Shown here: in pieces, positions 13,621 to 17,361 of the stretch
How the letters are laid out: every line of letters begins with the position of its first letter
Numbering within the stretch: the first letter of the stretch is position 1
DNA from: Nevskiaceae bacterium
Lineage (GTDB): Bacteria > Pseudomonadota > Gammaproteobacteria > Nevskiales > Nevskiaceae
Direction: 5' to 3'
Length of the DNA stretch: 64,000 nucleotides
Assembly (NCBI GenBank): GCA_008012115.1
Contig: SSEB01000019.1
Coordinates: 1-64,000 of the forward strand
The notes under the pieces: generated by a model
What the model was told of the DNA's origin: nothing
What the model saw: only the letters and a program-made list of their open reading frames with translations
Databases searched by the model: none
Position numbers and translations under genes: made by a program

Positions 13621-13807
13621 ATAGTTTAGAAAATCACCCCGAAACCTCGCCTCAAAAAAACCACGTCGCCGCGGTCGCAACTTTCCGATTTTTCCTACAG
13701 CAGCACGCTGACGCCTAGTATTAAATATCCATAAGAAGAACATTGCGTCACAGATAAGAACAACTCAGCATTTGTGCATAAGCTGCTAAACGCATCGGAG
13801 CGTGCCC

Positions 13808-15586
13808 GTGATCAAGAAAACTGCCATTTTTAGCCTCTCCCTGGTGGCCAGCACCGCGATGGCGCAAACCGCCTCGGGCGTCCCGGTTGTCAGCCCGCTG
13901 GTGACCGGGCTGGCCAATGCCCTCACCGCGTTGCCGACCACGCCGGGCAGCGGCCCGCTGGGCGTCACCATCCTCAAGAACGGCGCCGACGGTTCCGGCA
14001 TCGGCCAGGTGCTGGGCGTGGGCCTGGGCGGCGGCACCACGCCGAACATCATTGGTCAGCAGATCAACAACCGTCTGGTCACGCCGCTGGTCGGCCTCGA
14101 TGGCAACCAGGGCGCGCTGGCGGTAGGTGCTTTCAACGGTAACAACACGACCAATGCCGCCTCGAGCGGCGTTGCTGCGGTGTCCTTGATCTCGGGCAAC
14201 GACAACGGCAACGGCGGCCTGGCCGGTGTCGGCGCGCACAGCGGCAATAACACCGGCAACAGCCTGGTGGCGGGCGTCGGCGCACTCTCCGGCAACAACG
14301 CCGGCAATGGCGGTGTCGCCGGCGTCGGCGTGCTCAACGGCAGCAACAGCGGCAACGGCGCGGGCCTGTTGGGCCTGGGCGTGCTCAATGGCAGCAACAC
14401 CGGCAACAGCACCGGCGTCGGTGTCGGCGCGCTGTCGGGCAGCAACGCCGGCAACGGTGCGGTGGGTGTCGGCGCGCTCAACGGCGCCAACTCCGGCAAC
14501 GGCCAGTATCTTGCGGTGGGCGCGCTCTCGGGCAGCAACAGCGGCCAGTCGTCTCAGGGTCTTGGCGTCAGCCTGCTCAATACCGGCGATCCACTGTCGG
14601 TCTCGGCCGGCGGCAACAGCGTGGGCCTGACCTCGCTGGCGCAGCAGGCGCAGACCGCGATCCCCGCCACCACGATCCTTCCCGGCGTGCAGGTCGGCGG
14701 CGCCCAGACCACGACCTCCAACCCGCTGCTCAACGTCGGCGTGCTGTCGGGCGACAACGCCGGTAGCGGCGGCGCCGTTGGTGTGGCGGTCCTGGGCGGC
14801 AACAACACGGCGCGTTCCTCCACGCTGGGCGTCGGCGCGCTCAACGGCAGCAACAGCGCCAGTGGCAGCCCGCTGGCGGTGGCCGCGCTGGATGGCGCCA
14901 ATTCCGGTAACGGCACTTTCGTCGGCGCCGGTGCGCTGAGTGGCACCAACTCCGGCAACAGCGGCGGCGTCGGCGCGGGTGTACTCAACCCGGGCAACAC
15001 CGGCAACGGCGGCGTGGTCGGCGCCGGCATCCTCAACGGTCAGGCCGCCGGCACGGGCGACAACTCGGGTAATGGCGGTGTCCTCGGCGCCGGCGTGCTC
15101 AATGGCGCCAGCTCCGGCAATGGGGGTGTGATTGGCGGCGGCGTGCTCAACAGCGCCAATTCCGGCAATGGCGCAACGCTGGCCGGCGCGGGCGTGCTCA
15201 ATGGCGACAACTCGGGTAACGGCGCCGTCCTCGGCGGCGGTGTGCTCAACGGCAACAGTTCCGGCAACGGCGGCACCATCGGCGGCGGCGTGCTCAACGG
15301 CACCAAATCCGGCAATGGCGGCGTGATTGGCGGCGGCGTGATCAACGGCGCCGGCTCCGGCAACAGCGGCACTGTTGGTGCCGGCGTGCTCAATGGCGCG
15401 ACACCGACCGGCAACAACGGCGGCGGCAATGGTGGCAACACGGGCGGCAACAACGGCACCGGCAACCAGAAGGCCGATGACGGCGATCAGCTCTGCACCG
15501 CCAGCGACGAGAGCGGCAAGAAGCGCAACACCAAGCACGGCAAGCAGTCCTGCTCGCCGCAGGTCAAGGTGGCTCGCCAGCAGTAA
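13808..15586 (+). CDS. Secreted Gly/Asn-rich repeat protein (candidate partner of the downstream barrel)
   Basis: 592 residues from a GTG that lies 7 bases after GGAG; a GTG at 13802 is too close to that site. A signal peptide (MIKKTAIFSLSLVASTAMA) is followed by about 85 less repetitive residues. Then come two blocks (about 105-270 and 310-535) of roughly 16-residue repeats, consensus GVLNGxNSGNGGVxGG, broken by a non-repetitive spacer. A Gly/Asn linker and a basic tail with two cysteines (LCTASDESGKKRNTKHGKQSC) end it. The regular small-residue repeat suggests a beta-solenoid or beta-roll on the cell surface or outside. It lacks the TPS N-terminal motif of haemagglutinins, yet the next gene encodes an FhaC/ShlB-type barrel. 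I do not recognise a named family. Confidence 0.75.
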   Translation: MIKKTAIFSLSLVASTAMAQTASGVPVVSPLVTGLANALTALPTTPGSGPLGVTILKNGADGSGIGQVLGVGLGGGTTPNIIGQQINNRLVTPLVGLDGNQGALAVGAFNGNNTTNAASSGVAAVSLISGNDNGNGGLAGVGAHSGNNTGNSLVAGVGALSGNNAGNGGVAGVGVLNGSNSGNGAGLLGLGVLNGSNTGNSTGVGVGALSGSNAGNGAVGVGALNGANSGNGQYLAVGALSGSNSGQSSQGLGVSLLNTGDPLSVSAGGNSVGLTSLAQQAQTAIPATTILPGVQVGGAQTTTSNPLLNVGVLSGDNAGSGGAVGVAVLGGNNTARSSTLGVGALNGSNSASGSPLAVAALDGANSGNGTFVGAGALSGTNSGNSGGVGAGVLNPGNTGNGGVVGAGILNGQAAGTGDNSGNGGVLGAGVLNGASSGNGGVIGGGVLNSANSGNGATLAGAGVLNGDNSGNGAVLGGGVLNGNSSGNGGTIGGGVLNGTKSGNGGVIGGGVINGAGSGNSGTVGAGVLNGATPTGNNGGGNGGNTGGNNGTGNQKADDGDQLCTASDESGKKRNTKHGKQSCSPQVKVARQQ

Positions 15587-15595
15587 AAGCAGCAC

Positions 15596-15658
15596 CCGGC
15601 CTGCGGCGCGCCGGGACGCGCCCACCGCAGGCCGGCATTGATCCTGAGAGCAGGATCA
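15596..15658 (+). promoter_or_regulatory. Two consecutive perfect hairpins between repeat protein and barrel genes
   Basis: CCGGCCTGCGG (15596-15606) pairs exactly with CCGCAGGCCGG (15625-15635), and TGATCCTG (15639-15646) pairs exactly with CAGGATCA (15651-15658). Neither is followed by a T-run, so they look like intercistronic RNA stems that could stabilise the upstream mRNA end or lower read-through into the barrel gene. Confidence 0.6.
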
Positions 15659-15728
15659 GCAAGACTCAGGGCGCGGCGTCCGGATTCCGGATAGACCGCA
15701 ATACATAACAAGCCGTACAGGGACCGTC

Positions 15729-17318
15729 ATGAGCGTAGAACTTCCACCACCCGCCACCCCGCAACAGGGCACCGTCGATCAGCTGCAGTCGCAGGCCGGT
15801 AGCGGTGTGGTCGTCGCCTTCCAGACCTATCAACTGCATGTCGCCGCCAGCGGCATCCTGGATGAGGCGGCGATCCAGAACGCCGTCGGCCTCGCCGACA
15901 ATCTGTCGAACGCGGTGCGCAACATCGGGGCCGCGGCCTATCTCGCCGGCTACCCGGCGTCGCAGGTGACCTACGCCCTCTCTGGCAACGATCTCTACGT
16001 GCTGGTGCTGCCGGGCAAGATTTCCGGTGTGAAGGCCAGCGACGCGCTCAAGCCTTACCTGAATGGTCTCGAAAGCGCCGATCCGATGCGCGACAGCGAT
16101 CTCATCGGCCACACCACGCTGGCCAGCCTCGCCGCCGACCGCGCCGGCATTGACGTCTACCCGGTGTTCGAGCCCGACGGCAACGGCGGCCAAGTGCTGG
16201 ACTTCGAGAAGAACAACAAGGATGCCGACCCGACCACGGTGCGCGTGGAATTCGGCAACCCCGGCAACCGCTTTGCCAGCCGCTACTTCCTCGACATGGA
16301 CCTGAAAACCGGTTCGATCTGGGGCGATGAATTCCGCGTGTTTGCGCGCGAGGGCATCCAGAACCTCGATGACAAGGGCAAGCCGGGCGACTATCACGAG
16401 CAGGATCTGGTGTGGACGCGGGTCACGCCCTGGGGCCTGTTCGGTCTCGACGGACGCTTCGTCAACTACAACTACACCTCGCCCGTCGTTGCACCCGCCA
16501 CCACCGGCACCAATGTCCTGGGCCGCATCTGGGTCGGCGAGGCGCAGTGGCTTTACCCGCTGTTCGCCAACTTCAACAGCCGCTGGACGGTGCAGGCCAA
16601 GGCCGACCGCACCAGCAAGAGCGGCAAGCTGGACAGCAGCGCCGGCTCGCCGAGCCAGGAGTACCAGCGCGAGCTTTACACCAGCGGCGAACTGGGCACG
16701 ACCTACCTGCGCAACTTCGCCTTCCTCGGCCATCGCTGGGATCTCGCCAGCGGCGTGTCGGTGCGCAAGGGTTTTGGCGACAGGACGCCGGACACCAGCT
16801 TCAACCCCGCAGCCGGTGACACCAGTCCGATGCATGGCGACGAGGGCTACCTGCTGTTCCGCCCCACCGCCAGCCTCAAGTTCTACTGGACCGGCGCCCT
16901 GGTCACCGGCGTCGAAGCCAGTGGCCAGTTCAGCAACGACAGCGTGCCGGAGCAGCAGCAGTGGGTGCTTGGCGGCCTCGGCAACCTGACCAGCTCCCTG
17001 CCCGGCGTGGCGGTCGGCGACAAGGGCTATCTGGCCCGCGCCTACACCGAGCTGACGCTGCCGCTGATCGCCGGCATCGAGCTGAAGCCGCGCGTGCTGA
17101 TCGAGCACGGTGCCGCCAAGTTCGCCAAGCCGCTCGCTGGCCAGAGCACCGATACGCAGCAGGTGACCGACGCCGGCCTGGAGTTGGGTTTCAAGTTCAC
17201 GCAGATCGTCGACGGCACCCTGGCCTACGCCAAGTCCTTCGACGACAAGGGTGTCACCTCGTCCACCAAGCAGGACGCCGACGCCCGCGTCTACTTCCGC
17301 ATCAGCATTAAGCTCTAG
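15729..17318 (+). CDS. FhaC/ShlB-like outer-membrane translocator (TpsB-type)
   Basis: 529 residues. The first 110 or so residues contain a POTRA-like stretch (AAYLAGYPASQVTYALSGND, then LYVLVLPGKISGVK), the pattern of ShlB/FhaC-type activators that export a partner protein. The rest is strand-rich barrel, with the family-like region around FFGDEFR-type strands, and ends in YFRISIKL. The ATG has a good ribosome site (AGGGA), and the frame is open further 5' only to a TGA at 15645 without another usual start codon. Oddity: no signal peptide precedes the POTRA region (MSVELPPPATPQQG), so either a rare start codon is used or the export signal is atypical. It follows the repeat-protein gene by 142 bp and is closed by a terminator. 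Confidence 0.75.
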   Translation: MSVELPPPATPQQGTVDQLQSQAGSGVVVAFQTYQLHVAASGILDEAAIQNAVGLADNLSNAVRNIGAAAYLAGYPASQVTYALSGNDLYVLVLPGKISGVKASDALKPYLNGLESADPMRDSDLIGHTTLASLAADRAGIDVYPVFEPDGNGGQVLDFEKNNKDADPTTVRVEFGNPGNRFASRYFLDMDLKTGSIWGDEFRVFAREGIQNLDDKGKPGDYHEQDLVWTRVTPWGLFGLDGRFVNYNYTSPVVAPATTGTNVLGRIWVGEAQWLYPLFANFNSRWTVQAKADRTSKSGKLDSSAGSPSQEYQRELYTSGELGTTYLRNFAFLGHRWDLASGVSVRKGFGDRTPDTSFNPAAGDTSPMHGDEGYLLFRPTASLKFYWTGALVTGVEASGQFSNDSVPEQQQWVLGGLGNLTSSLPGVAVGDKGYLARAYTELTLPLIAGIELKPRVLIEHGAAKFAKPLAGQSTDTQQVTDAGLELGFKFTQIVDGTLAYAKSFDDKGVTSSTKQDADARVYFRISIKL

Positions 17319-17336: not shown

Positions 17337-17361
17337 AAAGCCCGCTTCGGCGGGCTTTTTT
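17337..17361 (+). terminator. Rho-independent terminator after the barrel gene
   Basis: AAAGCCCGC, loop TTCG, GCGGGCTTT with a T-run to 17361. Repeat copy 3 begins only 3 bp later. Confidence 0.92.

Follow-up and report, generated by a model that had tools for sequence, protein, structure and literature searches.

A signal-less TpsB-like barrel and its linked repeat protein in the Nevskiales

A cleaved Sec signal is regarded as a requirement for bacterial outer-membrane barrels, and a barrel that lacks one is, by the textbook rule, expected to remain in the cytosol. Our literature search on TpsBs without signal peptides found no such papers. A two-partner secretion (TPS) system is defined by a TPS domain, a signal peptide and the lid-lock Arg. 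The lid lock of FhaC is a salt bridge between this Arg and an Asp (PMC4490367), and FhaC activity requires the VRGY motif (PMC5422565). The plug helix H1 is predicted in most TpsBs; in FhaC it is dispensable, and the linker is required (PMC5422565). Among the exported partners, HMW1 and HxuA use a C-terminal disulphide loop as an anchor (PMC5422565).

The locus and its repeat protein

The window analysed here comprises 64,000 nt of a 3.25-Mb genome, the closest named relative of which is the nevskialean gammaproteobacterium Stenotrophobium rhamnosiphilum (barrel identity 68-70%). A repeat-protein gene and a barrel gene, both on the + strand, are located 3' of mfd (named from sequence) and of a CsiV-domain gene. 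The coordinates in an initial annotation of the window were correct, and the features of the two genes are the following.

13808 (GTG)..15586, + strand: repeat-protein gene, candidate exported partner, 592 aa (ORF; orthologues 5' of the barrel in relatives)
13808..13864, + strand: repeat-protein Sec signal peptide, MIKKTAIFSLSLVASTAMA (identified by eye; leaders aligned in relatives)
13865..14251, + strand: conserved N-terminal region of the repeat protein, LGVTxLxxGADGSGI...LVTPLLGLDGN, not the Pfam TPS domain (alignment; Pfam)
14252..14503, + strand: repeat block 1, 16-residue units (periodicity; AF2 model)
14564..14722, + strand: conserved non-repeat spacer between the repeat blocks, LGVSLLN...TSNPLLNVG (alignment)
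14903..15367, + strand: repeat block 2, GVLNGxNSGNG units (periodicity)
15464..15583, + strand: C-terminal tail of the repeat protein with Cys563 and Cys582 (sequence; alignment)
15719..15723, + strand: Shine-Dalgarno AGGGA, 5 nt 5' of the barrel ATG (sequence)
15729..17318, + strand: signal-less TpsB/ShlB-like barrel gene, 529 aa (ORF, profiles, AF2, fold search)
15729..15809, + strand: N-terminal tail of the barrel protein, MSVELPPPATPQQ..., occupying the position of signal peptide, H1 and linker (conservation; profile alignment)
15810..16223, + strand: two POTRA domains of the barrel protein, residues 28-165 (profile alignment to ordinary TpsB; AF2 secondary structure)
16224..17315, + strand: 16-stranded barrel with C-terminal beta-signal VYFRISIKL (AF2; family terminal-residue tally)
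16986..16997, + strand: L6 tip LTSS of the barrel, at the position of (V/I)RG(Y/F) in ordinary TpsB (family comparison)
17103..17105, + strand: Glu459 of the barrel, where (F/G)xDxG has the lid-lock Asp (family comparison)
17337..17361, + strand: putative intrinsic terminator AAAGCCCGCTTCGGCGGGCTTTTTT, 3' of the barrel gene (by eye)

The putative terminator at 17337..17361 is absent from the list of a program scan. Between the two genes lies an inverted repeat, GATCCTG...CAGGATC, at 15641-15659, which is a possible attenuator. Antisense to the repeat gene, a 625-codon open frame extends over 13748-15625 on the minus strand and most likely arises as a side effect of the GC-rich repeats.

The initial annotation had described the upstream protein as one with a signal peptide, two blocks of about 16-residue repeats and a basic two-Cys tail but no TPS-type N-terminal domain, and this anatomy was borne out, beginning with the leader MIKKTAIFSLSLVASTAMA. 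The autocorrelation of the protein peaked at 16 residues, with 31.1% identity as opposed to 18.5% in the best of 500 shuffles. SGNG-like motifs recur 15-17 residues apart, with a single interval of 22, in two blocks covering residues 149-232 and 366-520. Cys563 and Cys582 are located in a tail bearing eight K/R versus five D/E, and a near-C-terminal Cys pair is found in 9 of 10 aligned repeat proteins. The alignments gave a common family order of conserved N-terminal region, repeat block, conserved spacer, second block and two-Cys tail, from which the most distant member, L076, deviates. A Pfam search of the repeat protein and nine relatives returned zero matches and hence no TPS domain; in this genome PF05860 matched another locus only (E 2e-39) and never the repeat protein.

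The AF2 model of the repeat protein had a pLDDT of 60 overall and of 70-82 within the repeats, where each 16-residue unit contains one 5-residue strand. The protein is predicted from this model to fold as a beta-solenoid with 16 residues per turn; the comparison of the model with PDB folds returned nothing significant.

A TpsB homologue without a signal peptide

Homology places the barrel among the Omp85/TpsB proteins, which upholds the initial reading of an FhaC/ShlB-like protein with a POTRA-like start and a barrel end. The window protein alone gave no significant match, ShlB included, in Pfam, NCBIfam or PDB sequences, and a first scan of genome contigs with this single protein was empty. 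A family profile built from 28 relatives later gave matches, and this profile matched CdiB at E 0.0015. In the HMM comparison with the ShlB profile that the initial annotation had suggested, PF03865 matched 24 of the 28 relatives (best 1.5e-11), albeit not the window protein by itself, and many relatives scored above its curated cut-off. Alignment of the family with ordinary TpsBs from the same genome set by hhalign resulted in a probability of 99.75 and an E of 2.8e-27, with family residues 28-511 aligned to residues 74-555 of the ordinary TpsBs, covering both POTRAs and the barrel. The AF2 model of the barrel protein (pLDDT 85.2, pTM 0.81) contains two POTRA-like domains and 16 strands, and its top five Foldseek matches in the PDB were CdiB and FhaC, with E down to 8.7e-20. 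The N-terminal tail is ordered in the model, at a pLDDT of 85-91. The beta-signal is kept, the C-terminal residue being F/Y/L/W/I in 49 of 50 family members, and the family is poor in Cys. A classical autotransporter barrel was unsupported, PF03797 being without a match in this genome.

The open frame 5' of the barrel ATG reads EQDQQDSGRGVRIPDRPQYITSRTGTV and contains no in-frame signal peptide. The absence already noted in the initial annotation is real and family-wide: reading of the N-termini found no signal peptide in any of the 51 members examined (46 from the order, four from two other families and one from a phylum sample), the family being spread over several GTDB families, mainly Nevskiales. 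The start site is common to all 51 barrels, with the motif M-[ASPTG]-[IV]-x-[LF]-PPP and, in almost every member, the form M-small-[IV]-x-[LFMV]-P. Residues 1-8 average 3.33 bits each, the 99th percentile of the protein, and the 50 members tallied have only Ala, Pro, Ser, Thr or Gly at position 2, a single apparent Val being traced to a start placed one codon too late, where the DNA encodes Pro; a small residue at this position fits Met removal. A Shine-Dalgarno 4-mer stands ahead of 34 of the 50 starts, as opposed to 16.6 in shuffles.

Where the same genomes encode ordinary TpsBs, these carry hydrophobic leaders. The mean N-terminal hydropathy was 0.93 for the signal-less barrels versus 2.29 for the ordinary TpsBs, a comparison generous to the latter because their starts were chosen to favour hydrophobicity. 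When 17 additional signal-less members were given equal freedom, their best in-frame start still reached only 1.67 versus the mean of 2.29. We found no shared hydrophobic segment 5' of the barrel in any frame at 50 loci, the three marginal exceptions not being shared, which led us to reject a leader concealed in another upstream frame. The N-terminal motif had one exact non-barrel match among the other proteins of 41 genomes, so that nothing points to a general tag. We also considered co-export with the partner by the twin-arginine route and set it aside, as the partner leaders read by eye show no RR motif.

The lid lock is also altered. POTRA1 begins at barrel residue 28, the counterpart of residue 87 in an ordinary TpsB, so that nothing but a short linker remains and the plug helix H1 is lost; H1 is absent in all 51 family members, whereas ordinary TpsBs of the same genomes retain it. 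The Arg at the L6 tip, within (V/I)RG(Y/F), is found in only 11 of 50 family members as opposed to all 22 ordinary TpsBs, and 49 of the 50 carry Ala or Ser where the motif has Gly. The lid-lock partner, which belongs to (F/G)xDxG on strand 13, is Glu in 48 of 50 family members, whereas 21 of the 22 ordinary TpsBs have Asp there. The signal-less barrels form one well-separated clade with a support of 100 in a quick tree, in which some long branches were flagged.

Genomic linkage and other neighbours

The repeat protein and the barrel are closely linked. Full-length barrels (46 members) are encoded by 41 of the 85 genomes of the order, and the repeat protein is present in 11 of these 41 versus none of the other 44 (Fisher p 1.5e-4, relatedness ignored). 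In the eleventh repeat-protein genome the contig ends 150 bases beyond the repeat gene; in all 10 testable cases of the order the repeat protein is located directly 5' of the barrel on the same strand, "directly" referring to the nearest larger gene, as one small reading frame intervenes in some. The pairing, initially drawn from adjacency, thus goes further in that the repeat protein occurs in the order only with the barrel and beside it. The reverse does not hold: 36 of the 46 barrels in the order have a different upstream neighbour or none, so that the genes stand apart in most relatives when counted from the barrel, but adjoin in 10 of 10 cases when counted from the repeat protein. The repeat protein therefore depends on the barrel, and not the barrel on the repeat protein. 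A distant repeat protein of 869 aa (G052) is not beside the barrel of its own genome, and in a gammaproteobacterial MAG (L076/L135) the repeat protein, an OmpA-like protein and the barrel follow in series.

In several lineages, other barrels have different small signal-peptide proteins on their 5' side, including a 108-aa protein, and such varied small secreted neighbours suggest one transporter type serving several substrates. At L049, L050 and L144-L149, small signal-peptide proteins of ~120-130 aa ending in PLPGPAFLN... replace the repeat protein 5' of the barrel, and they are in tandem in L049 and L050. Secreted EF-hand-like proteins (DRDGDGMISAGE) occupy this position in L056, L057 and L059, which form one paralogous branch. 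Beside the barrel, loci of different lineages repeatedly encode an outer-membrane protein whose C-terminus is OmpA-like, a family recognised by eye; it is located 3' of the barrel in L032, 5' in L042 and L053, and between repeat protein and barrel in L135. In L032, L036, L037 and L047, but not in the window, the interval separating repeat gene and barrel appears to code for a small helical-looking protein with an IDLLDGLxxRLE-like motif.

Possible function and relation to known systems

We consider that the pair is probably a divergent type Vb-like unit, in which a signal-less TpsB exports and tethers a Cys-looped beta-solenoid partner. The repeat protein would enter the periplasm by Sec, be threaded by the POTRAs through the barrel across the outer membrane and fold outside as a solenoid, and its C-terminal Cys loop would probably act like that of HMW1 and HxuA, retaining the protein within or at the pore. 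The barrel would have lost the signal peptide together with H1, beginning directly at the short, strongly conserved LPPP tail. We infer the outer-membrane location of the barrel, the secretion of the repeat protein and its tethering from the anatomy of the two proteins. Export of the barrel without a signal peptide is favoured over a cytosolic role because of the retained beta-signal and the scarcity of Cys, both of which argue for assembly from the periplasm; our preferred guess is export by Sec via mature-chain signals, with participation of the conserved N-terminus.

Several observations speak against the Vb-like reading. The textbook rule leaves a signal-less barrel in the cytosol, the window barrel itself scores no Pfam ShlB match, and the repeat partner has no TPS domain. 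Moreover, 36 of 46 order barrels are without this partner, the G052 repeat protein is apart from its genome's barrel, and the solenoid model is only moderately confident, with a pLDDT of 60 and no significant PDB match. The VRGY Arg is mostly lost, although VRGY is essential in FhaC (PMC5422565). The initial proposal of two-partner secretion is thus upheld by the TpsB homology and the linkage but not by a partner without a TPS domain and a barrel without a signal peptide and the lid-lock Arg. As several defining features of canonical TPS are missing, the pair should be called a TpsB-derived variant and not a full TPS member.

Could the barrel be an ordinary TpsB after all, its signal peptide hidden by a wrong start, a frameshift or a recoded upstream leader? 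The assumed need of outer-membrane barrels for a Sec signal, and its presence in the ordinary TpsBs of the same genomes, would favour this explanation. We regard it as very improbable, because 51 proteins from several GTDB families share an identical start and the absence of a signal peptide, no frame holds an upstream hydrophobic stretch (bar three marginal, unshared exceptions in 50), Shine-Dalgarno sequences mark 34 of 50 starts, and residues 1-8 are among the most conserved, with residue 2 always small.

An unlikely, albeit more serious, alternative is that the POTRA-barrel acts inside the cell or arrives by another route and is not a TPS transporter, the repeat protein being exported independently and linked to it otherwise. 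The conserved beta-signal and the marked rarity of Cys, both features of barrels that assemble from the periplasm, the retention of two POTRAs and a complete barrel, and the other small signal-peptide proteins as immediate 5' neighbours in several lineages speak against this scenario, whereas the missing signal peptide, the lost lid-lock Arg, the partner without a TPS domain and the many barrels without a repeat partner agree with it. The loss of the L6-tip Arg also suggests an altered mechanism, and the neighbours include several unrelated secreted proteins (tandem ~130-aa, EF-hand-like and 108-aa proteins), as might be expected if the barrel resided in the outer membrane but were not the pore for the repeat protein. 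It could then be, for instance, a pore for small molecules or a factor of general assembly, to which the repeat protein only binds. This seems distinctly unlikely to us, given that the transporters FhaC and CdiB are closest by both profile and fold and that the repeat protein is directly beside the barrel in 10 of 10 testable order cases.

Extending the Vb-like reading from the pair to the clade, we tentatively propose, at slightly less than an even chance, that these barrels reach the periplasm without an N-terminal signal, by mature-chain Sec or an M-[ASPTG]-[IV]-x-L-P-P-P route, secrete partners without a TPS domain and have a rewired lid lock. The route of a signal-less pore to the outer membrane is a puzzle that is now open to test, and a signal-less clade with eight conserved first residues offers a natural test of outer-membrane protein export without a signal. 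The clade also supplies natural variants of the Omp85 lid lock, and partners devoid of the TPS domain are useful for probing substrate recognition.

Compared with the TpsBs FhaC, CdiB and ShlB (PF03865), the family shares the two POTRAs, the 16-stranded barrel, the C-terminal beta-signal, an L6 region with conserved GG and GD.G, and a gene position next to a secreted repeat protein. It differs in having neither signal peptide nor H1, in the VRGY Arg being mostly lost, in Glu replacing the Asp of (F/G)xDxG, and in forming one separate clade. The repeat protein has a Sec signal peptide, a long predicted beta-solenoid body and paired Cys at the extreme C-terminus in common with the TpsAs HMW1 and HxuA, but it is small (about 450-740 aa), consists of 16-residue Gly/Asn-rich units and lacks PF05860. 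The same genome also encodes an ordinary TPS pair (L138, G000 contig C8), with a TpsB ORF of 562 codons and a TpsA of 1837 aa. This pair shares the TpsB fold family with the locus described here, whereas it has a signal peptide, VRGY, a TPS domain (E 2e-39) and the gene order B then A.
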